From: a virus
Length of the DNA: 27,636 bases
Virus record (IMG/VR): IMGVR_UViG_3300048591_000494
Coordinates: 1 to 27,636 of that record
Reading direction: 5' to 3' (one strand)
The notes under the pieces are model-generated. The model was not told the origin of the DNA. It did not search any database and worked only from the letters and a program-made list of their open reading frames with translations. Both the position numbers and the translations under genes were made by a program. Shown one piece after another: positions 2,812 through 27,636 of the stretch (positions are counted from its first letter, which is position 1; every line of letters starts with the position of its first letter).

Positions 2812-2855
2812 TGGAGGCGCGTTCCGGAGTCGAACCGGACTGGACGGATTTGCAA
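2812..2855 (-). other. attP: tRNA-Cys 3' fragment, phage attP core
   Basis: Read on the minus strand the segment runs from the anticodon loop (TTGCAAA, anticodon GCA) through TCCGT, the T arm (TCCGG TTCGACT CCGGA) and the acceptor strand ACGCGCC to an encoded CCA. This matches the 3' half of bacterial tRNA-Cys. The 5' half is missing: bases right of 2855 do not complete the anticodon stem, and no D arm follows. Phages that use a tRNA gene carry such a 3' piece in attP so that integration rebuilds the gene. In a simple integrated prophage the fragment end would have host DNA on its 3' (left) side; here int lies there. The arrangement therefore fits an attP in a circular phage genome, or a junction between tandem prophages. 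Confidence 0.82.
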
Positions 2856-2940
2856 CCGCTCAGCGCGTGCATCGCGCGCTACGCTTCCCAGGTGCGCGCT
2901 TCGCGCGGTCCGCGCTTGGCCGGCATGAAACGCGCCATCT

Positions 2941-15841: not shown

Positions 15842-17449
15842 TCACAAGGCGCGCTCGCGGCCTCGGTCGAGCCACACGTCGAACTGCAGGCCCATGCGGT
15901 ACAGCCGCGTCTCTGGCTCGCGCAGGTTCGCGACGAGCCCCGTCATGTAGCTGTGCTGCTCCATTGCGTCGCGCACCGCGCGGGCCAGGATCTCGACGCC
16001 GGCATCGGTCTGGTGCCAGCAGTCCACCTGCACGCTGACGCGAGCGGTCGGCGGCAGGCCGCTGAGGTTGACCTCCGGCGCCATGCTCGGGCTGAACCAA
16101 GTCAGGTACGGGTCGGGCATCGGCGCACCGTCGCGCGTCTGCGGGGCCGCTCCGTGGCGCCAGATGCGCGGCGGCGAGGTGCCGACGATGTTCGTGACGG
16201 CCGCGCTGGCGGCCAGCCAGGTGTGAACTGGTGGCATGAAGACGTGCCTCGGGACGGTTGATGGCTCGGTGCGCGTGACGACCGGCACGCGCGGCGCTGC
16301 GCTGACCTGCGCGACACCAGGGACGAACCGCCTATTGCCTGTCTGCGTGGCCGTCGGCGCAGCCGTGAGCACCTGCAGCGAAGCCGGGCCAGGTCGCACG
16401 CGCGTGCCGGTCTGCTGCTGGACGCTCGGCGCGTAGGTCTGCAGCGCAACGGCGCCCAGGTCCGGCGCGACGATCTGGTGCGCCGTCCTGTCGACCGTCG
16501 GTGCGTAGGTCTGAAGCTCGACAGCGGCATAGCCGGGTGACACGACTCCAGACTGCGTGCGCTGGACCGTCGGCGCGTAGCTGGAGAGCGCCACCGCGGC
16601 GGCCGCAGGCTGCAGCGTGACATGCGCCGTGCGGTCTACGGTGGGTGCATAGGTGGCCAGCGAGACCGATGCAGCGCCGGGAGTGGCGACGAATGCGCCA
16701 CCGCGCGACACCGTCGGCGCGTAGGTGGCAGCAGCCAGTGCCGCGAACTGCGGCGACAGCGTCAGGTCGGCCGTCTGCGCCAGCGTCACCTGGTAGCTTG
16801 CGACCTCCACAGCGGCCACGCCAGGCCGCACGATCTGGTTCTCTGTGCGCGAGACGGTCGGCGCGTAGGAGGCAGCTGCGATGGCCGCTGCCGCCGGTGT
16901 GATGGTTCGCGAGTCCTGGCGATCGACTGTCGGCGCGTAGCTGGTGACCGCGAAGGAAGTAGCGGCCGGAGCGACGGTCTGGTTCGCTGTCCGGTCGACC
17001 ACCGGCGCATAGGTCGTGGCCTCGATCGCCGCGGCCGAAGGCACGACGCGCTGGTTTGCCGTCTGGTCGACAGTGGGCGCGTAGGTCTGCGCCTCGATTT
17101 CCGACGGGGCGCCTGCATTGATGGTCGTGCTGCCGACGGTGACGTAGATCGTCCCATCGTCCGCGCCAGTCGTGCCGTCAGCCTCGATCCACAGCAGACG
17201 GTAGTCCTGCTCATAGGCGCCATCGTCGGCGCCGATCAGCGCGTACCCGCCGAAGTCGTCGGCCTGCGTCGTGCCGCTGGCGATCAGCGGCGTCAGCAGC
17301 ACCCACAGCAGTTGTGTGTCCGCGTCGGCCGGCAGGTCCGGGTCGTTGAGCAGCGGCGAGTCCTCGTCGCCGAGCCCGCTGATCTCCGACGGGAAGATGC
17401 CGACGTTGCCGACCTTCAGCCGGCCGGGGATGCCGCCGATCAGGATCAC
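15842..17449 (-). CDS. repeat protein fused to a DUF3168-like tail completion domain
   Basis: This 535-residue protein starts at GTG 17449, overlapping the upstream stop as GTGA. Residues 1-121 form a mixed N-terminal domain (ILIGGIPGRLKVGNVGIFP). Residues 122-385 are eleven tandem 24-residue repeats with consensus near TYAPTVDRTANQxVxPxAAA. Residues about 405-535 look like a DUF3168/tail completion domain: VHTWLAASAAVTNIVGTSPP, PYLTWFSPSMAPEVNLSG, RVSVQVDCWHQTDAGVEILA, MGLQFDVWLD. The usual DUF3168 protein is only about 130 residues and caps the tail at the head junction. The order gp10-like, DUF3168, tail tube is kept, so the C-terminal domain is in its normal place and the repeats are an addition. 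Confidence 0.8.
   Translation of the reverse strand: MILIGGIPGRLKVGNVGIFPSEISGLGDEDSPLLNDPDLPADADTQLLWVLLTPLIASGTTQADDFGGYALIGADDGAYEQDYRLLWIEADGTTGADDGTIYVTVGSTTINAGAPSEIEAQTYAPTVDQTANQRVVPSAAAIEATTYAPVVDRTANQTVAPAATSFAVTSYAPTVDRQDSRTITPAAAAIAAASYAPTVSRTENQIVRPGVAAVEVASYQVTLAQTADLTLSPQFAALAAATYAPTVSRGGAFVATPGAASVSLATYAPTVDRTAHVTLQPAAAAVALSSYAPTVQRTQSGVVSPGYAAVELQTYAPTVDRTAHQIVAPDLGAVALQTYAPSVQQQTGTRVRPGPASLQVLTAAPTATQTGNRRFVPGVAQVSAAPRVPVVTRTEPSTVPRHVFMPPVHTWLAASAAVTNIVGTSPPRIWRHGAAPQTRDGAPMPDPYLTWFSPSMAPEVNLSGLPPTARVSVQVDCWHQTDAGVEILARAVRDAMEQHSYMTGLVANLREPETRLYRMGLQFDVWLDRGRERAL
16295..17086 (-). repeat. eleven tandem 72-base units encoding 24-residue repeats
   Basis: The coding repeat TYAPTVDRTA and variants recurs every 24 codons without any length change (TYAPTVDQ, TYAPVVDR, SYAPTVDR, SYAPTVSR, SYQVTLAQ, TYAPTVSR, TYAPTVDR, SYAPTVQR, TYAPTVDR, TYAPSVQQ, TAAPTATQ). 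On the plus strand this shows as recurrent CGGCGCGTAGGT-like segments. A degenerate twelfth unit (PRVPVVTRTE) follows. Similar YAPTV repeats occur in other phage structural proteins. They probably stack as a beta fibre or lattice. The units are diverged at the DNA level. Confidence 0.85.
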
Positions 17450-20082: not shown

Positions 20083-20562
20083 TCAGATTGCAGCGGCCAT
20101 CAACTCGCGCGCCCGGTCCTTGACCTGCTGCACGCGCGACGTACCCACGCCAGTAAGGCGCTTTCGTTCGCGCGGGTCGTCGTGCTCCATGTAGGCCGCC
20201 AGAATCTCGCGCTGCCGGTCTGTCAGCGCATCCAGCGCCACCAGTGCCTGCTTTGCGGCGAGGATTCGCTCTGGCGTCTCGTGGTGCGCGTCGCTCTGCG
20301 GCATCGGCTGAATCTCCGGTGCAGCGCGGCGCCGTAGCCAGCGGCGCAGTTCGTCCAGCATCGCCCATCGCGCCTGCGCGAACGCGGCGCCGAACTCCGG
20401 CAGCGCGCCGCGCTTCTCTTTCGACAGCCACAGGGCTACGGCCGCAGACTGCAGCAGGTCGCAGCGGATCAACTCCGGCGCGGGTATGGCGCCCGACCGC
20501 ACAAGATGCTGCAGGGCGTGCTCGGCCGCCCGGCGCTCTGTGGGTGTCAGGCAGTCGCGCAT
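20083..20562 (-). CDS. sigma-70-like HTH protein inside the structural operon
   Basis: This 159-residue protein has two parts reminiscent of small sigma factors. Residues about 35-80 (ALWLSKEKRGALPEFGAAFA, RWAMLDELRRWLRRR) recall the region-2 core of FliA-type sigma factors, where AMLDELR is a familiar motif. Residues about 106-157 (ALDALTDRQREILAAYMEHD, LTGVGTSRVQQVKDRARELM) resemble the region-4 HTH (LTxRQRxIL, then GVxxSRVxQ). It could be a phage sigma factor, an anti-sigma partner or a DNA-binding regulator of late genes. The start is two bases after the preceding stop. Its place among virion genes is odd. Confidence 0.72.
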   Translation of the reverse strand: MRDCLTPTERRAAEHALQHLVRSGAIPAPELIRCDLLQSAAVALWLSKEKRGALPEFGAAFAQARWAMLDELRRWLRRRAAPEIQPMPQSDAHHETPERILAAKQALVALDALTDRQREILAAYMEHDDPRERKRLTGVGTSRVQQVKDRARELMAAAI

Positions 20563-20564
20563 GG

Positions 20565-20948
20565 TCAGGCCGGCGGGAAGCGCCGCCGCAGGGCGTTGAC
20601 GCGCTTGATCGCCAGGTCCACCACATCCAGGTCGCTCAGGCCGGTCATCTCCGGCATGCGTGCCAGGAAGTGCAGCACCAGGTCGCGCTCGCTCATCTGC
20701 GAACCGCCCGCCATCGCGGCCAAGCCATCGGCAACGGCCTGCGTTGCCCGGCGCTGCTCGACGGCCGCAGCGTTCATCGCTTCGGCCTGCGCCTTGTTCG
20801 CGTCGGCCTGGGTCAGCCTGGCGATCCAGTCGGCCACCTGCGCAGGCGTCAGGCCCTCCGGCATCGGCGGCCAGTGCGCGGGCGGGGTCCACGGTGCCGG
20901 CGGCTCGGTGGGCGTGGGGGCGGTTCCGGCAGTCATGGCGTCGCCCAT
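20565..20948 (-). CDS. small hypothetical protein with proline-rich N-terminus and helical C-terminus
   Basis: This 127-residue protein starts at ATG 20948, overlapping the preceding stop as TGATG; an in-frame ATG at 20936 is an alternative. The first 35 residues are Pro/Thr-rich (TAPTPTEPPAPWTPPAHWPP). The remainder is helical (PAQVADWIARLTQADANKAQ, DLDVVDLAIKRVNALRRRF). The family is not recognised. Position after a small structural protein and before the sigma-like gene suggests either a scaffolding-type virion protein or a partner of the sigma-like protein. Confidence 0.68.
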   Translation of the reverse strand: MGDAMTAGTAPTPTEPPAPWTPPAHWPPMPEGLTPAQVADWIARLTQADANKAQAEAMNAAAVEQRRATQAVADGLAAMAGGSQMSERDLVLHFLARMPEMTGLSDLDVVDLAIKRVNALRRRFPPA

Positions 20949-21421
20949 CACAGCACCGCCAGCGTCAGGACGCCGCTCGCATGCGCCTCGATCGTCAGCG
21001 TGTTGCCGTCGGTCGTGATCGGCACGTCGGCCGGCGTGTTGTCGCCGAGGAAGTGCCCCAGCACAGGGTTGACCTTGCTGTTGAGCGTGCCGGCGTAGTA
21101 CAGCACCGCGCGGCGCCAGGCCGGGATGCCGGAACCGCTGGCGGTCCACACGACGTCGCCGATGTCGAAGGTCACGGTGCCGCCGCTCTCGCTGAGCGAC
21201 ACCGAGGCAGGCGCGGCGCCGCCCGTGGTGTAGCCATCGCCGTTGGCGATCTCGTCACCCGAGAAATCGGCCCAGACCTCGTCGGTGGCGTCGTCGGGCG
21301 TGAAGCCGCTGTCGATCAGCGCAACCCGCCAGTTGCCGGCGGTCGACTGCGCCAGCAAGTTCGTGGCGCTGACGAAGTTCAGCAGCGCCTTGTCGGGAAT
21401 GACCCATGCACCTGCAGCCAT
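20948..21421 (-). CDS. small virion protein, resembles the protein at 4802-5263
   Basis: This 157-residue Gly/Ser/Thr/Asp-rich protein is predicted to be beta-structured: GNWRVALIDSGFTPDDATDE, GDGYTTGGAAPASVSL, TFDIGDVVWTASGSGI and WRRAVLYYAG, with a terminal DGNTLTIEAHASGVLTLAVL. GAAGGAG precedes the ATG. The same strand plan appears in the protein encoded after the gpJ-like gene, so the phage may carry two copies of one small structural fold. It is probably a decoration or fibre component. No enzymatic motif is visible. Confidence 0.75.
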   Translation of the reverse strand: MAAGAWVIPDKALLNFVSATNLLAQSTAGNWRVALIDSGFTPDDATDEVWADFSGDEIANGDGYTTGGAAPASVSLSESGGTVTFDIGDVVWTASGSGIPAWRRAVLYYAGTLNSKVNPVLGHFLGDNTPADVPITTDGNTLTIEAHASGVLTLAVL

Positions 21422-21442
21422 GTGAGCTCTCCTTCGGGTAGA

Positions 21443-21496
21443 TCAGTGCGCCGCGCTGTGCCGCGGCAGTTGGTGGAACTTCGGGACGCGCTTCAT
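21443..21496 (-). CDS. possible 17-residue peptide between the gp10-like and next gene
   Basis: A tiny frame, MKRVPKFHQLPRHSAAH, starts at ATG 21496 and overlaps the gp10-like stop as TGATG, the same coupling seen at other junctions of this operon. It ends 22 bases before the next gene's ATG, upstream of that gene's RBS. It is basic and His-rich. It is too short to judge by composition and may simply be leader sequence, so it is recorded at low confidence. Confidence 0.25.
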   Translation of the reverse strand: MKRVPKFHQLPRHSAAH

Positions 21497-22008
21497 CACA
21501 TCCCCTCGGTCTTGAATCCGAGCTTTCGCGCAGCGCGGCCGATGGCGCGCGGCAGTTCTGTCTCGATGGTCGCCAGCGCCTCCGGGGCCTTGGCCTCGAA
21601 TGCGGGCTTCAGCCAGGGCGTCGCCGGCTGCTTGCTGCTGCCGTGCTCCATGACGAAAGCGATGTCGTTCGCGCGGATAGGCCGGCCGCGGAAGGTGTTG
21701 CCGTTCGGGTGCGGCACGTAGCGAACCGTCACCAGCTGCCGCTCGCCCTTGACGCCGGCCGGCATCTTCCGGCCGCGCTTGGCCGTGATCTGCTGCTGCG
21801 TGAAGCCCGTCGTGTCGGTGATGCCGGAGACGCCTGCCATCGCCACCGCCGCGCCGAAGTTGATGCGCGCCTGCTTCACGAAGACCTGCGCGGCCTTGCG
21901 CAGCGCGACGCGCACCGGGCCGCCGTTCTTGCTGACGACTTCCGGCGGCAGCTTGCGCAGCGCCTCGAGCACGCCGTCCAGGCCGCTGAGCTTCACGTCG
22001 ACCTGCAT
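21496..22008 (-). CDS. HK97 gp10-like neck/tail protein
   Basis: This 170-residue protein has the HK97 gp10 layout. It opens with MQVDVKLSGLDGVLEALRKL, which matches the GLDxLxxxLxxLP start. An ALRKAAQVFVKQAR helix follows, then a beta segment with VRYVPHPNGNTF and DIAFVMEHGSSKQPATPWLK, the typical ExGt..qpa.Pfl pattern. Such proteins act at the head-tail interface or on the tail terminator. In related phages the next gene is DUF3168; here six genes intervene. The start overlaps the upstream stop as TGATG. Confidence 0.87.
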   Translation of the reverse strand: MQVDVKLSGLDGVLEALRKLPPEVVSKNGGPVRVALRKAAQVFVKQARINFGAAVAMAGVSGITDTTGFTQQQITAKRGRKMPAGVKGERQLVTVRYVPHPNGNTFRGRPIRANDIAFVMEHGSSKQPATPWLKPAFEAKAPEALATIETELPRAIGRAARKLGFKTEGM

Positions 22009-22172
22009 CAGCCCAGACTCCTGCCGTCGTCGCGCGCCGGGAACACGCGGCCATCCAGGCTTCGCACGGCGGCGTCTTCCTCCGGCTCTTCGGCCAGGGC
22101 CTTGAGCAGTGCGTCGAGCTTCTCTTCGATTTGATCCAGGCGGGCTTCGATTGCTGCCAGATGCTCGATCAC
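22008..22172 (-). CDS. small coiled-coil protein
   Basis: This 54-residue protein starts at GTG 22172, which overlaps the preceding glycosyltransferase-like stop as GTGA; its own stop overlaps the next ATG as TGATG. Residues 1-32 (IEHLAAIEARLDQIEEKLDA) show a clear heptad pattern predicted to form a coiled coil, followed by an acidic segment (AEEPEEDAAV) and a basic tail. It could be an oligomerisation or adaptor peptide for the neighbouring modification enzymes, or a small virion protein. Tight coupling on both sides supports expression. Confidence 0.65.
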   Translation of the reverse strand: MIEHLAAIEARLDQIEEKLDALLKALAEEPEEDAAVRSLDGRVFPARDDGRSLG

Positions 22173-22768
22173 GCGGCTTCCATCGCTCGGTGCAGCGGCG
22201 GCACCCACTCGTCGGCCACGTCCCACGGCCTCGGCTTGCCGTGAAAGCACACGATCTGCGTGCCCTGCGGCACCCCGCTTCGGCAGTGCACCTTGTAGCT
22301 GCGCACTTCGTCGCCCCACCGCGCGGCCACGCCGAGGAACGGCTGCAGGAACCCCTGGTCGCCCCAGCGCGCGCGCGTGACGCACTCGCGCATGTGCCGC
22401 GCAGGGTTGACGTTGAACGCCTCCCAGCAGCGCGCGCGGTCCGCGGCCGTGATGAACATGAAGCCCGAGCCCATCAGGTGCGGCCTGTAGAAGTCCGACA
22501 GCACGGTCGTCTTCGATGGCAACCGCGGCAGCTTCAGCACGACCGTGTCCAGGTCCATCAGCAGCACGTCGCCGCTGACGAGCTCGCTGTCGAATGCCTC
22601 CAGCTTCGCCCACCAGCCAGGCCAGCGCGTGCGCAGCGCGATGGTTGGCACTCCGGGGACAGACTGGTCCGACAGGCACACGATGCCCGGCACCTGGCGC
22701 GCCAGCCACTGCACGTGAGCCGGCGCGAAGTCCTTGCCGGCGCGCAGCACGCACAGCAGCGTCGTCAT
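22169..22768 (-). CDS. glycosyltransferase-like protein with DxD motif (second of a tandem pair)
   Basis: This 199-residue protein is related to the next gene upstream. Shared features are an N-terminal LLCVLRAGKDFAPAHVQWL strand-helix, IVCLSDQSV, the segment WPGWWAKLEAFD, then VLLMDLDTVVLK with DLD at 72-74, then WGDQGFLQPF and a terminal VCFHGKPRPWD. DLD in a hydrophobic strand is the metal and nucleotide-sugar site of GT-A-fold glycosyltransferases; the layout suggests a GT8-like protein. The donor and acceptor are unknown. Starts overlap stops (ATGA and GTGA), so it is an integral part of the late operon. Confidence 0.75.
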   Translation of the reverse strand: MTTLLCVLRAGKDFAPAHVQWLARQVPGIVCLSDQSVPGVPTIALRTRWPGWWAKLEAFDSELVSGDVLLMDLDTVVLKLPRLPSKTTVLSDFYRPHLMGSGFMFITAADRARCWEAFNVNPARHMRECVTRARWGDQGFLQPFLGVAARWGDEVRSYKVHCRSGVPQGTQIVCFHGKPRPWDVADEWVPPLHRAMEAA

Positions 22769-23391
22769 GCCGGTGCCCCTTGTCGCCACCACTTGCGCGC
22801 CCAGTCCGGCCCTTCCCACGGCACGTGCGTGGCGTTGAACGCGACGATGCGCGCGCGCCTCGGCGGTACTCTGAGCCGGCGCCGTGCCATCTGATACCGG
22901 TAGCTGACGATGGCCCCATCCTGGAACGCGCGCACGTCTCCGGCATGCTCGGCGATGAACGCCTGGTCGCCCCACTTCTCGCAGGTCGTGTAGGTCGCCA
23001 TGACCTCGGCGGCCACCGGCTCGAAGGCCTTGGTGATGTGGCTGTAGTCGCCGTCCCACGACATCACGCCGCTCGCGAAGAGGCTCGGATACGCCCAGTT
23101 CCTGATCATCAGGAACCGCCCGGTCACCAGCGGCGATGGGTCGGCAACGATCACGCTGTCCAGGTCCAGGTACAGCGTCCGGCCGGTGAGCTCGCGGAAC
23201 AGCTCCAGCTTTGCCCACCATCCAGGCCAGTCGGTCTGCAGCGGCAGGCGCTCGCAGTCGACGGGCACATCAGACAGGCACACGAAGCGTGCCGCCGGCA
23301 TCCAGTGCGCGACCTGCGCGCGCAGACCTTCGACATGGGCGGCGCTGTAGGAACCGCCGCTGCGCAGCACGCACGCCACGGTCAGGTCCAC
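22765..23391 (-). CDS. glycosyltransferase-like protein with DxD motif (first of a tandem pair)
   Basis: This 208-residue protein starts at GTG 23391, eight bases inside the GT2 gene; the open frame extends upstream but is antisense-like there. It shares with its neighbour the opening VACVLRSGGSYSAAHVEGL, FVCLSDVPV, WPGWWAKLELFRE, the strand TLYLDLDSVIVADPS (DLD at 76-78), EKWGDQAFIAEHAG and FNATHVPWEGPDW. The two genes look like a tandem duplication that has diverged, perhaps for different acceptors. GT-A fold is inferred from DLD and the overall plan. Confidence 0.75.
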   Translation of the reverse strand: MDLTVACVLRSGGSYSAAHVEGLRAQVAHWMPAARFVCLSDVPVDCERLPLQTDWPGWWAKLELFRELTGRTLYLDLDSVIVADPSPLVTGRFLMIRNWAYPSLFASGVMSWDGDYSHITKAFEPVAAEVMATYTTCEKWGDQAFIAEHAGDVRAFQDGAIVSYRYQMARRRLRVPPRRARIVAFNATHVPWEGPDWARKWWRQGAPA

Positions 23392-24041
23392 AGGTGCCCC
23401 CACTTGGACACGAGCCGGTCGCGGTTCGTCTCGTGCACGCCCTGATACGCATGCGGCGTCGCGTGGTGACGCACGACACCGGGCGCCAGCTTGAACACAG
23501 CGCCAGCGGACGCCAGCGACCATAACCAGTCGTTGTCCTCACAGCTGCGGCCGTGGCGGTATGCCTCGTCGAAGCCTCCGACGCGGTCCCACAGCGAACG
23601 CCGGAACATCGCGCAAAAGTGGAAGTGCGACCCAGGAGGCACCGGCAGGCGGCCGTGCTTCATGTAGTCGACCTTCGGCCCGGCCAGCCACAACCCCCCG
23701 GCGTCCCGGCATGACACGGTGACGTAGTCGTTTTCGCTCTGCAGCATCGCCAGCATGCCGCTGAGCACGTCGTCGGTGTGCTCGACCTCCGGGTTCGTGA
23801 GCACGATCACGTCCCCGCTGCTGGCCTGCACCGCGCGGTTGATCGGCACGCACGGGTTGAGGCCGACGCTCTTGGCCGGCAGCCGCGTGACGACGCACCC
23901 TGGCGCTTCAACCGGGACCGGCGAGCCGTCGTCGCAGATGGACACCTCGATGTCCAGGTGCCCGTACAGCCGCCGGTAGCTCGCCAGCGTCCGGTCCAGG
24001 TGGGTCTGGCGCTGCCAGTAGGGCATGCAGACCGAGATCAC
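23382..24041 (-). CDS. family 2 glycosyltransferase
   Basis: This 219-residue protein begins ISVCMPYWQRQTHLDRTLAS and has VSICDDGSPV, the nucleotide-binding start of GT2 enzymes. The segment GDVIVLTNPEVEHTDD occupies the usual DxD position but reads TNPE. Near the C-terminus WDRVGGFDEAYRHGRSCEDN with DWLWSL matches the GGFDExx...ED acceptor/catalytic motif. It is short but complete. The acceptor is unknown: virion protein or host surface polysaccharide are both possible. The ATG overlaps the radical SAM stop as ATGA. Confidence 0.88.
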   Translation of the reverse strand: MISVCMPYWQRQTHLDRTLASYRRLYGHLDIEVSICDDGSPVPVEAPGCVVTRLPAKSVGLNPCVPINRAVQASSGDVIVLTNPEVEHTDDVLSGMLAMLQSENDYVTVSCRDAGGLWLAGPKVDYMKHGRLPVPPGSHFHFCAMFRRSLWDRVGGFDEAYRHGRSCEDNDWLWSLASAGAVFKLAPGVVRHHATPHAYQGVHETNRDRLVSKWGHLWT

Positions 24042-25081
24042 ACGAACTCCGCGTGCATGCTCTTGCGCTGCGTCGCAGCGATCACCTGGTTCTGACCGCG
24101 GAACTGGCAGAAGCGGCAGCCTGTGGCGTCGAAGTGCTGCACGGCCTGGCCGAACAGGCTCGCGAACCGGCGGTCATGCAGGCTGGCGACCTTGCCGGCG
24201 CGCGTGTACGCGGTGTTGCAGCATCGGTACACGCCCAAGTCGCCGCCGATGTACGTCGACAGGTGCTGGTAGCCGCAGAGCTCTTCCGTCGGGCTGCCGG
24301 CATTCAGGTCAGCGATGCGCCGATCGAACAGGTCAACGACCAGAGCCCCGAACCGCGCGCGCGCATCGGCTCGCACCGCGGCGATCTCCGGCAGCAGGTC
24401 GCCGTAGTGCGAGACGCCGTCGGCGCTGAAGACGGCGCCGACGCGGACGTTCGCAGCGCCGGCCTCCAGCGCAAGCTCGCAGGCGGCCGGAAGCTCGCGG
24501 TAGTTCTCCGGCGTGACCACGAAGCCGACGCTGACGGTCCCGGTGCACCGCTGTGCCAGCTCCTTGACCTTCTGCCAGGCGACAGGCCAGTACCGCTGCG
24601 CCACTCGCCTCGTTCGGGCGTAGGTCTCCGCGCTGCCGGCGTCGATCGAGACGCGAATCCAGCGCATCGCGTGCACGGCTTGATGTTCGGTGTCCAGCGC
24701 GATCGCGTTGGTCACGAGCGCCGTCGACATGCCGCGGGCCTGCGCGCGCGCGAACATCTCCAGGTGATCCGGGTGCACTGTCGGCTCGCCGCCGCCGGTG
24801 AACTGGATCGCGTGAACGCCGATGTCGGCGCAGTCGTCGATGATCTCGCGCGCCTTGTCCGTCGCGATCTGCCGGTTCGGGTTCTTGCGGGCGCCCTCCG
24901 GGAAGAGCTCGTTCGAGAGGCCAGACGACATGCGGTAGGCGCAGAAGCCGCAGTCCTGATTGCACAGGTCCGAGAGCACGAGCTGCACGTGCACGGGTGC
25001 CGGCGAGAAGCCGTCGCGCAGCGTGGCCAGGCGGTCGAGCCAGTAGACCGGCTTGGTCTGCGAGTACAGGTCTTCGGTCAT
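24038..25081 (-). CDS. radical SAM protein with C-terminal SPASM-like cysteines
   Basis: This 347-residue protein carries the radical SAM [4Fe-4S] motif CNQDCGFC (C40, C44, C47) after a VQLVLSDL strand. SAM-binding GGGEPT lies at 96-101 and VSIDAG later in the barrel. The C-terminal cysteines C269, C287, C288, C322 and C325 (LCGYQ, YRCCNTAY, GCRFCQF) suggest a SPASM- or Twitch-type auxiliary cluster. Such enzymes modify peptides, sugars or other small substrates by radical chemistry; the substrate is not evident. The true start is ATG 25081, overlapping the preceding stop as ATGA; the longer frame to 25234 has a low-complexity antisense-like extension. It sits between a nucleotide-sugar-fold protein and a GT2. 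Confidence 0.88.
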   Translation of the reverse strand: MTEDLYSQTKPVYWLDRLATLRDGFSPAPVHVQLVLSDLCNQDCGFCAYRMSSGLSNELFPEGARKNPNRQIATDKAREIIDDCADIGVHAIQFTGGGEPTVHPDHLEMFARAQARGMSTALVTNAIALDTEHQAVHAMRWIRVSIDAGSAETYARTRRVAQRYWPVAWQKVKELAQRCTGTVSVGFVVTPENYRELPAACELALEAGAANVRVGAVFSADGVSHYGDLLPEIAAVRADARARFGALVVDLFDRRIADLNAGSPTEELCGYQHLSTYIGGDLGVYRCCNTAYTRAGKVASLHDRRFASLFGQAVQHFDATGCRFCQFRGQNQVIAATQRKSMHAEFV

Positions 25082-25701
25082 GCTGCCGCCATCTCCTGTG
25101 GCACCGCCAGTGCCAGCGCTTCCTCTAGCGTGCTGCGCGCGAAACACGTCAGCGCCGTCGAGCGACTTGCGTTCACTACCTGGCAGCGCCTGCCCTTCGC
25201 GTACATCGCCACCTGCGCGAACTGCTTCGGCCACTTGCCGACGCTGCCGGCGTTGCCCAGCGGCGCCGGGTGGTCGCCGTGCCAGTGCGTCCGGCCCGCC
25301 GTGTGCTGGCAGTCATAGCCCAGCAAGATGACCTTCTTCGCGCCGGCCAGGGCGGCGAGAGAGACTGCCGCCGCGCCGCTGTTGCCGAATGGCTTGAAGC
25401 TCATCAGCCGCAGAGTCCGCAGGGACAGCGCGCCGTACTTCGCGCCGTTGTTGGAGCAGGTGACGCGCCGGCCCTTGAAGTCCTTCGCCACCTGCGCGTG
25501 GTGCACCTTCCACCAGTTCTCGTCGAACGCCAGCAGCACCGTCGCCCACGGGCACAGCTGGTACGTCGTGTTCGTCACGATCGTCGGCAGGCCGCTCGCG
25601 CGCACCAGTTCGCAGTCTTCAGCGGTCAGGCTCGGCCCGCTCGCAATGCATACCACCGTCCCGGCCAGCTCCTTGAGCCACTCAGCCCGGATTGACGCCA
25701 T
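25078..25701 (-). CDS. DUF115/GT42-like nucleotide-sugar-fold protein
   Basis: This 207-residue protein opens with VVCIASGPSLTAEDCELVRA, the GxGPSL loop found in DUF115/MptE-like and GT42 (sialyltransferase) proteins. Later it has KPFGNSGAAAVSLAALAGAK and VILLGYDCQHTAGRTHWHG, the NSGxxA and LxGxD pair of the same fold. A sugar-transfer role is plausible, but pterin-pyrophosphokinase-like or inactive versions cannot be excluded. It begins within the last 20 bases of the head closure gene and ends overlapping the radical SAM ATG. It is the first gene of the presumed modification cluster. Confidence 0.72.
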   Translation of the reverse strand: MASIRAEWLKELAGTVVCIASGPSLTAEDCELVRASGLPTIVTNTTYQLCPWATVLLAFDENWWKVHHAQVAKDFKGRRVTCSNNGAKYGALSLRTLRLMSFKPFGNSGAAAVSLAALAGAKKVILLGYDCQHTAGRTHWHGDHPAPLGNAGSVGKWPKQFAQVAMYAKGRRCQVVNASRSTALTCFARSTLEEALALAVPQEMAAA

Positions 25702-26023
25702 ACGAACAGAGCAGGGTCATGTGGCGGATGCCGCTGCGCGCGTCGGGCAGCACCGCCTCGACGTTGTAGGTCGTGTCGCGGTGCACGACGCGCATGCTCG
25801 GCGCGATGCCGGGCCTGTGCCGGATGGTGATGCGCGCCGTCACCTTGGACTGCGTCGCAGCCGCCGCTATGAACTCCCGGCCCGACAGCGGCGCGATCTC
25901 GGCCGGCACCAGGCTGCCCACGAAGTCAGCCCATGTCTCGACCGCGTTGCCGTCGGAGTCCTGTTCCGTCGTGATCTGTTCGATGCGTACCCGATGCCGC
26001 AGGCGGCCGGCAGCCAAGCTCAT
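25682..26023 (-). CDS. head closure protein (SPP1 gp16 / phage_H_T_join type)
   Basis: This 113-residue protein matches the head-tail joining pattern: MSLAAGRLRHRVRIEQITTE (the GxLrhRvxIe start), then DSDGNAVETWADF, VPAEIAPLSGREFIAA, and ARITIRHRPGIAPSMRVVHR followed by TTYNVEAVLPD. These proteins form the stopper ring that closes the portal after DNA packaging. The ATG overlaps the connector stop as ATGA. Length is normal for the family. Confidence 0.9.
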   Translation of the reverse strand: MSLAAGRLRHRVRIEQITTEQDSDGNAVETWADFVGSLVPAEIAPLSGREFIAAAATQSKVTARITIRHRPGIAPSMRVVHRDTTYNVEAVLPDARSGIRHMTLLCSYGVNPG

Positions 26024-26655
26024 GCCATCCCCAGGCGCACGCGAGACGGCCGCAGCAGCGCCTCGAACCCGAGCGGCAGCGCGGTGAGCGCCTTTTCCGT
26101 GGCCTCTTCGCGGTGGGCGAACAGGTGGCCCAGCACGAGCAGGATCGCGGCCCGGAACGTCGCCGGCAGCGGCTGCTCGGTGTCCGTTGCGTCGGCGCGG
26201 CCGTAGCCGGCGCGGTATGTGATGCGCACGCCCAGCGGGCCGCCCGACGCCGGCCAGGCCGAACGCACGACCAGCCGATTCGGCATGCTGAAGTCGTCGA
26301 GCAGGTAGGCCGACGGGTCGACCGTCTCGGCATCGCTGCTGCTGGACGAACTGCTGCTGGCCTCGCCGCCGCCGACCGTCACGCTCAGGATCTCCAGCAC
26401 CGGGCCAAACGGCAGCTCGACCGCCTCGGTCGGGCTCTCGTCCAGCGCGATCTCCAGCACGCGCTCGGCCAGCGACAGGCCCAGGAAGTTCTCGCAGTGC
26501 TCACGCGCCGCGGCCAGCCAGCCGAGGATCATGGTGTCGTCCATGTCGTCGCTGCTGTCGCTGTCGCCGTATGGCAGCGCTTCCAGATGCGACCGGCACT
26601 CGTCGATCGTCAGCGGTTCTTCCGCCGGCGGGATGATGACCTTCGGGCCTCTCAT
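26020..26655 (-). CDS. head-tail connector protein (gp6/phiE125 gp8 type)
   Basis: This 211-residue protein has the connector layout: LTIDECRSHLEALP near the N-terminus, a helical ILGWLAAAREHCENFLGLSL, then PFGPVLEILSVTV, YLLDDFSMPNRLVV, VRITYRAGYG and AILLVLGHLFAHREE. This matches adaptor proteins that bind the portal. It carries an uncommon run of eight serines (about 104-111) and an acidic DSDSSDDMDD loop, both probably surface insertions. It overlaps both neighbours by ATGA. Confidence 0.9.
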   Translation of the reverse strand: MRGPKVIIPPAEEPLTIDECRSHLEALPYGDSDSSDDMDDTMILGWLAAAREHCENFLGLSLAERVLEIALDESPTEAVELPFGPVLEILSVTVGGGEASSSSSSSSDAETVDPSAYLLDDFSMPNRLVVRSAWPASGGPLGVRITYRAGYGRADATDTEQPLPATFRAAILLVLGHLFAHREEATEKALTALPLGFEALLRPSRVRLGMA

Positions 26656-27636
26656 CGCGTGCCCTTCACCCCGAGCTGCCAGTCGTCGCCTGCGCCCTTG
26701 GGCGGCTGGCCCGTGTCGCGTTTTGCCACCCAGACGCTGCCGCCGTAGGTGACGGCATCGCCTTGTGCATAGGCCTTGCCAGGCGCGTACACGCCACGGT
26801 AGACCATCATTCCAGGCAGGTGAACCTGGCGCTGCACGCGCCGCTCACCTGCGCAGAGCGTGATGGTCAGCGTCCGGTCCTCCAGCGAGATCTCCAGATC
26901 GTCCGGCGTGAACCCGTCCGCGCCATCCTTCGGCTTCGGCGCCTTGTCGACCGCTCGCTGCGCCACTTCCGTGGCGCGGCGCTCGATCTCCAGCAGGCGG
27001 CGCGACACCTCGGCCTCGACGAGCGGCTGCACGTCCTCCGGGGTGATGCTCTCGCCGTCCTTGCCGTCCCTGCCGTCCTTCACGGCGGGCAGCGACTTCA
27101 TGACCATGTCGAGCACGTCCTTCGCGATGGCCACGGCGTCGGCGTCCTTGCCAGGCTGCGGCGGCGGCAGTGCGGCGACGGCGCGGCTGACTTCCTCGCG
27201 GACCGCCAGACGCACGGCCTCCGGGTCCGCGTCCTTGCCGTCGCGCGGAACAGGAATCGCCTTGACGGCCTGCAGCGCCTCTTCGCGCACCATGACGCGC
27301 ACTGCGTCCATGTCCGCATCCTTGCCATCGCGCGGGACCGGGATGGCTTCGACTGCGCGCTGCACGACGGCCAGCGCCTCGGCCTTGTGCTGCTCGGCCA
27401 GACGCTTGACCTCGCCTTCGATCAGCGGCCGCACGTCGTCGACTGTCACGCTCTTGCCGTCGGCCGGCCGAGGAATCGCAGCCACCTCGGCGGCCGCTTC
27501 TTCGCGAGCGGCGGCGCGCAGGACGTCCGGGTCGAAGTCGCGGCCATCGCGCCCCGGGAGCCCCTGCTCGCCGCGCTGACCTGGCTCGCCGTCCTTGCCG
27601 TCCTTCGGCACCGGCAAGCGGTCGATCGCGCGCTGC
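26652..27636 (-). CDS. collagen-like / coiled-coil virion protein with C-terminal binding-type domain, cut by the right edge
   Basis: At least 327 residues are visible and the frame continues past the right edge. Collagen-like turns (PVPKDGKDGEPGQRGEQGLP, VPRDGKDAD twice, VKDGRDGKDGES) alternate with helical segments of about 20 residues (AVRVMVREEALQAVKAI, AVRLAVREEVSRAVAAL), giving a 29-residue period in the middle. The last 60 residues (YRGVYAPGKAYAQGDAVTYG, GSVWVAKRDTGQPP) look like a small carbohydrate-binding module of the CBM5/12 type. It is probably a trimeric fibre on the head or neck. Its stop overlaps the connector ATG as ATGA. Confidence 0.82.
   Translation of the reverse strand, partial: QRAIDRLPVPKDGKDGEPGQRGEQGLPGRDGRDFDPDVLRAAAREEAAAEVAAIPRPADGKSVTVDDVRPLIEGEVKRLAEQHKAEALAVVQRAVEAIPVPRDGKDADMDAVRVMVREEALQAVKAIPVPRDGKDADPEAVRLAVREEVSRAVAALPPPQPGKDADAVAIAKDVLDMVMKSLPAVKDGRDGKDGESITPEDVQPLVEAEVSRRLLEIERRATEVAQRAVDKAPKPKDGADGFTPDDLEISLEDRTLTITLCAGERRVQRQVHLPGMMVYRGVYAPGKAYAQGDAVTYGGSVWVAKRDTGQPPKGAGDDWQLGVKGTR

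Follow-up and report, generated by a model that had tools for sequence, protein, structure and literature searches.

A radical SAM and glycosyltransferase cassette in the neck-gene operon of a probably temperate phage: a mobile insert that may decorate the virion

What is a set of sugar-transfer-type enzymes, with a radical S-adenosylmethionine (radical SAM) enzyme among them, doing in the middle of the genes that build the neck of a phage? We considered this question for IMG/VR virus record IMGVR_UViG_3300048591_000494, positions 1-27,636 (27,636 bases; this whole stretch is called the window here), where a six-gene insert, A to F, occupies 25701-22008 on the minus strand between genes for the head closure protein Hc1 and an HK97 gp10-like protein. 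The insert encodes four sugar-transfer-type enzymes, one radical SAM enzyme and one small peptide. Our survey found that this cassette recurs and moves among phages, and on balance we lean, narrowly, towards the view that A-F form a mobile cassette, expressed late, that puts a glycan on a virion protein, and that the radical SAM enzyme tailors this sugar. The genes of the cassette and its two flanks are as follows (amino acids, aa; E values in brackets).

25682-26023, minus strand: upstream flank, head closure protein Hc1 (Phage_HCP; PF05521, 5.9e-29)
25078-25701, minus strand: gene A, 207 aa, putative glycosyltransferase-type enzyme of probable MptE/DUF115 fold (phrog_4603, 1.8e-54)
24038-25081, minus strand: gene B, 347 aa, radical SAM enzyme with twitch-type auxiliary cysteines (PF04055, 5.8e-16)
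23382-24041, minus strand: gene C, 219 aa, GT2-like glycosyltransferase (PF00535, 5e-9)
22765-23391, minus strand: gene D, 208 aa, GT8-like glycosyltransferase with DLD and GDQ motifs (phrog_1962, 3.5e-34)
22169-22768, minus strand: gene E, 199 aa, GT8-like glycosyltransferase with DLDT, GDQ and HGKPRPW motifs (phrog_1962, 2.3e-52)
22008-22172, minus strand: gene F, 54 aa, short predicted coiled-coil peptide with a GTG start, overlapping E and gp10
21496-22008, minus strand: downstream flank, HK97 gp10-like tail completion/neck protein (phrog_5, "tail completion or Neck1", 2.1e-14)

The late genes of the window lie on the minus strand and run, from 27617 to 20948, in the order collagen-like protein, Ad1 adaptor, Hc1, A-B-C-D-E-F, gp10-like protein and tail protein. 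The initial annotation had placed six genes between head closure and gp10-like genes with an overlap at every junction, and the coordinates, strand, flanks and overlaps all held: start and stop codons overlap by 20 nucleotides (nt) at Hc1/A, 4 at A/B, 4 at B/C, 10 at C/D, 4 at D/E, 4 at E/F and 1 at F/gp10. A codon-usage gene caller, which uses no family information, returned the same gene calls for the cassette, and homologues with conserved motifs were found for five of the six genes. A search of 20900-27636 gave no sigma-70-like promoter, against a chance expectation of 0.2. Together, the overlaps throughout and the lack of a promoter support late co-expression with the virion genes, as had been proposed. 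The GC content of the cluster (0.68-0.69) equals that of its flanks, and recent acquisition as judged by base composition was accordingly rejected.

That the cassette is an insert is suggested by comparison with known phages. Salmonella phage FSL SP-016 shares 50% TerL identity with contig L002, which is nearly identical to the window. The phage has the same gene order (terminase, protease/capsid, portal, portal-like protein, adaptor, head closure, gp10, gp11, major tail subunit), but in FSL SP-016 head closure and gp10 overlap directly and the insert is absent. In PAJU2 the backbone order is again the same, and the slot between Hc1 and gp10 holds A, an unknown gene and a methyltransferase gene, while Pseudomonas phages D3 and Psp6 carry A and a methyltransferase gene within the capsid-gp10 stretch; these three phages differ from the window in having no radical SAM, GT2 or GT8 gene, and their inserted genes are functionally uncharacterised. 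Because the same neck occurs without an insert in FSL SP-016 and with another insert in the PAJU2 slot, the most fitting view of the window cassette is that it was inserted at a site which tolerates this and does not belong to the basic neck.

How widely does this arrangement recur? B was matched by 377 confirmed viral stretches, and by 144 stretches in 84,980 bacterial and archaeal genomes. Nearly all of the best 80 viral stretches reached 36% identity, as against only 10 of the best 80 genomic ones, a contrast that is indicative only, as the search patterns were derived from viral sequences. In the B tree, 68 of 70 viral proteins fell into one clade (SH-aLRT 99) with ten rows from genome assemblies, some of them viral-looking, and by this phylogeny B belongs to a phage-dominated clade. 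A glycosyltransferase-type gene lay within three genes of B in 49 of 69 non-redundant viral loci (71%), compared with 52 of 431 genes (12%) in the control set at nine or more positions from B; a methyltransferase gene was as close in 22 of the 69 loci, and 103 of 129 junctions of B had a gap of at most 25 nt.

Where HK97-type neck genes were recognisable, the A, B, GT2, GT8 and methyltransferase genes stood upstream of gp10, nearly always in the capsid-gp10 stretch, with the junction varying from Hc1/gp10 (the window, PAJU2) to Ad1/Hc1 (loci L004, L016 and L179) and capsid/Ad1 (L020, L050 and L185). Genes A and GT8 occupy the capsid-gp10 stretch without B in L176-L180, so that B, C and the methyltransferases look like add-ons to an A and GT8 core. 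Other lineages carry B-GT2-GT8 ahead of terminase and portal (L017, L042 and L057), and T4-like contigs carry B-GT2 between the sheath stabiliser region and terminase (L044). The B sequences nearest to that of the window in the tree come from phages of different organisation, which fits module transfer between phages. Conservation of the set at the same position, which the initial annotation had suggested surveying, is seen in part: the set recurs in the morphogenesis operons of unrelated phages, but its position shifts among neck and packaging junctions. Sporadic occurrence with independent promoters, which would have spoken against that annotation, was not the pattern in the loci examined.

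Gene B falls in the radical SAM superfamily (59.5 bits to PF04055, cut-off 29.5). Its core CxxxCxxC cysteines (C40, C44, C47) and its auxiliary cysteines (C269-x17-C287-C288 and C322-x2-C325) were invariant in 50 viral sequences. Of the earlier description as a radical SAM enzyme with SPASM-like cysteines, the first part stands; a full SPASM domain was rejected, as C269, C287, C288, C322 and C325 are the only cysteines conserved after the core and fall short of the seven-cysteine motif. They match the twitch-type motif, with one extra predicted cluster. The AF2 (AlphaFold) model of B was of high quality (pLDDT 94.5), and the solved structures nearest to it by Foldseek were BlsE (E 3e-14, TM 0.66, 21% identity) and then DesII; profile comparison likewise ranked BlsE best, with SkfB in the second tier. 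BlsE is a cytosylglucuronate decarboxylase and DesII an amino-sugar ammonia-lyase, both from antibiotic biosynthesis. B differs from these enzymes in scoring far below their equivalog cut-offs (BlsE, TIGR04466, 50.9 vs 400; DesII, TIGR04426, 26.0 vs 450).

The sugar-transfer theme of the remaining genes was borne out, with some refinement. Gene C is, as first described, GT2-like (36.7 bits to PF00535, cut-off 23.3), and the nearest solved relative of its family profile is chondroitin synthase (1.7e-15). The motifs DDG, LNPCVPxN, NPE..H and D-x-D are conserved in this family; in the alignment, NPE..H follows LNPCVPxN, about where GT2 enzymes usually have DxD. Genes D and E, formerly noted as two DxD proteins, do carry DLD/DLDT motifs and can be described more closely as two related GT8-like glycosyltransferases (about 33% identity between them). 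No Pfam family, the GT8 model included, matched either at E<=1; by their DxD and DQ motifs, the H-x2-G/xKPW-type motif of E and the likeness of their family profile to solved GT8-type enzymes (AgtA-type galactosyltransferase, 2e-8; glycogenin, 2e-5), we assign both to the GT8 type. AgtA-type galactosyltransferase and glycogenin both glycosylate proteins, and this likeness counts, at the level of sequence, for a virion protein as the target.

Gene A had been called DUF115/GT42-like. Its model (pLDDT 84) has the MptE-type HPPK 8sd5 as best fold in the PDB (E 2e-4, TM 0.48), and it scores 20.3 bits against PF01973 (MptE-like/DUF115), whose cut-off is 34.6; GT42 was not the best fold match and the profile match to GT42 Cst-II was weak (E 0.003). 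On these grounds we did not accept the PHROG label "sialyltransferase" for A. Gene A is 40-47% identical to D3 Orf7, PAJU2 ORF010, a Psp6 gene and P1 PmgO, with HdmB as the P7 counterpart. Relatives of A and of D/E in viral contigs were sought with single proteins, a search that reaches close relatives only.

Phages P1 and P7 offer a close comparison for A, D and E together. Their operons (pmgO-pmgP-ppp-pmgQ and hdmB-hdmC-ppp-hdmD) hold homologues of A (40%) and of D/E (33-36%) in one late operon, E being the homologue of P1 PmgQ (33% identity) and P7 HdmD; they differ in that P1 is a myovirus and that the operon has no radical SAM or GT2 gene and has a phosphatase in between. P1 PmgP, encoded between the A and GT8 homologues (L014, 4001-4627), has a weak MptE-like match (E 3e-4, below the cut-off).

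From these data, we propose the following sequence of events. The cassette sits in a virion morphogenesis operon, in an HK97-type and probably temperate phage, and its translation would come late and be coupled to that of the neck genes. Enzymes of the GT8-like, GT2-like and putative MptE-fold types would then assemble a short glycan on at least one virion protein, with donor nucleotide sugars taken from the host. B would tailor the sugar, either while it is still a nucleotide sugar or once it has been transferred, by a reaction like those of BlsE and DesII, e.g., epimerisation, decarboxylation or deamination. Two neighbouring proteins deserve mention as candidate acceptors.

26020-26655, minus strand: head-tail adaptor Ad1 (gp6-like) with an 8-serine run (PF05135, 6.5e-6; phrog_442, 1.4e-22)
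26652-27635, minus strand: collagen-like protein lying between portal and adaptor, with DGKDG repeats and a CBM5/12-like stretch at its C terminus

The SSSSSSSS run of Ad1 is the only serine run of that length among the predicted proteins of the window. Across loci, a serine run in the adaptor is confined to the window phage and L004 (SSSS) and is missing in more distant cassette-bearing relatives, so the neck adaptor was rejected as a general Ser/Thr-rich acceptor; the run is a possible O-glycan acceptor or linker in these two phages only. The collagen-like protein, which is longer in contig L002, is a further candidate acceptor.

Several observations weigh against virion decoration by the cassette. 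A recognised structural gene lay within eight genes of B in only 27 of the 69 loci, a lower bound given the small profile set used. B scores far under the curated cut-off of each named radical SAM family listed, and the peptide-maturing radical SAM enzymes SuiB and SkfB come close behind BlsE and DesII in the Foldseek ranking. No genes for nucleoside diphosphate sugar biosynthesis were seen in the cassette, and modification of the virion is itself inferred. P1 does not need pmgO or pmgQ for lytic growth (PMC10695390), so any virion role would be accessory; pmgP is likewise dispensable (PMC10695390). By analogy, such dispensability would be expected of a protective decoration. For virion glycans as such there is a precedent: in mycobacteriophages Che8 and Rita, glycans on the major capsid protein are reported and have been ascribed to phage-encoded glycosyltransferases (Freeman 2023, cited in PMC12619734 and PMC11256854). 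The glycosyltransferase genes of these phages, however, lie near the right end of the genome, outside the neck operon, and no radical SAM partner is mentioned for them.

In the chief rival explanation the cassette would change the glycans of the host surface (O-antigen or capsule), whether late in infection or in lysogens, and so block readsorption or superinfection; we regard this as a real though clearly minority possibility. GT8 and GT2 enzymes commonly act on lipopolysaccharide, and epimerase/dehydratase-type or glycosyltransferase genes often stand close to the cellular relatives of B. The "host recognition cluster" of pelagimyophages likewise has GT8 and radical SAM cassettes in the structural region beside the neck gene gp14 and was read by its authors as O-antigen modification (PMC7029224), though that island is large and hypervariable and includes tail fibres. 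The window phage is also probably temperate: two tyrosine-integrase-family genes lie in tandem on the plus strand (557-1603 and 1773-2747), and a tRNA-Cys gene (2812-2887, minus strand) adjoins the second and may mark the attachment site. However, the genes are embedded in a late structural operon in which we found no promoter, we recognised no flippase, acyltransferase or Wzy-type gene among A-F, and a surface change made minutes before lysis would be of limited value. The P1 annotation also places a late promoter and C1-repressor operators near pmgO and pmgQ, which favours late lytic expression and disfavours expression in lysogens and lysogenic conversion.

Alternatively, B might modify a virion peptide directly, through a SuiB/SkfB-like crosslink or epimerisation, with the glycosyltransferases acting on the product or independently. 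The places of SuiB and SkfB in the structure ranking, that of SkfB in the profile ranking and the short peptide F encoded in the operon point this way, but sugar enzymes are the best matches of B by both fold and profile, and its recurrent partners are glycosyltransferases and not peptides. Gene F is kept at the same position in L003 (51% identity over 41 aa, E 3e-6), and its relatives were found only there and in near-identical copies of the window locus, whereas B occurs widely where F is absent; F lacks cysteine, shows no recognised leader or core, and is disfavoured as a radical SAM substrate. We consider direct peptide modification unlikely.

It is less likely still that A and the GT8-like proteins are mainly head-neck assembly factors, as the "morphogenetic function" names in P1 and P7 would imply. 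Their position in the neck block, the annotation of P7 HdmB and HdmD as head morphogenesis genes and the "structural protein" label of the PAJU2 and Eowyn homologues of A (basis unstated) agree with such a role, but D, E and C have kept conserved motifs of catalytic type, the P1 homologues can be dispensed with, and the FSL SP-016 neck is identical in order without A or GT8-like genes. Phage DNA hypermodification (glycosylated or radical-modified bases), a process in which both glycosyltransferases and radical SAM enzymes are known, seems most improbable, as we recognised no nearby gene for hydroxymethyl-pyrimidine synthesis or kinase, it is neck and packaging genes that the module accompanies, and D and E match GT8-type enzymes acting on proteins or glucosides.

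Elsewhere among the minus-strand genes, the product of 15842-17449 (535 aa) ends in ~125 residues that match the tail completion gp17/tail terminator family, whose members are usually small proteins on their own; the neighbouring proteins (412 and 461 aa) matched no Pfam or PHROG family. A 159-aa protein of the late operon (20083-20562, minus strand) weakly resembles sigma-70 region 4 (E 0.029, under the cut-off) and is a possible late-gene regulator.

Overall, the initial annotation is confirmed in what it observed and partly supported in how it interpreted the locus. Several elements were already known singly, namely homologues of A and of the GT8 genes in P1, of A in D3 and PAJU2, GT8 and radical SAM cassettes in pelagimyophages, and virion glycosylation in mycobacteriophages. 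Among the open-licence papers covered, we found none on a phage-dominated radical SAM clade with glycosyltransferases in the neck operons of several phage types, which is weak evidence. More tentatively, and as a reading that we hold less likely than not, we suggest that this twitch-type clade makes an unusual radical-modified virion sugar and travels between unrelated phages in a neck-operon glycosylation cassette. On that reading, virion glycosylation would gain its first assigned radical SAM enzyme. If virion decoration by the cassette is true, sugar decoration of tailed-phage particles would be far commoner than the few mycobacteriophage cases, encoded inside the assembly operon itself and using radical chemistry. 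It would also provide a testable role for "putative morphogenetic" genes such as P1 pmgO/pmgQ and D3 orf7, and for the phage-dominated radical SAM clade.

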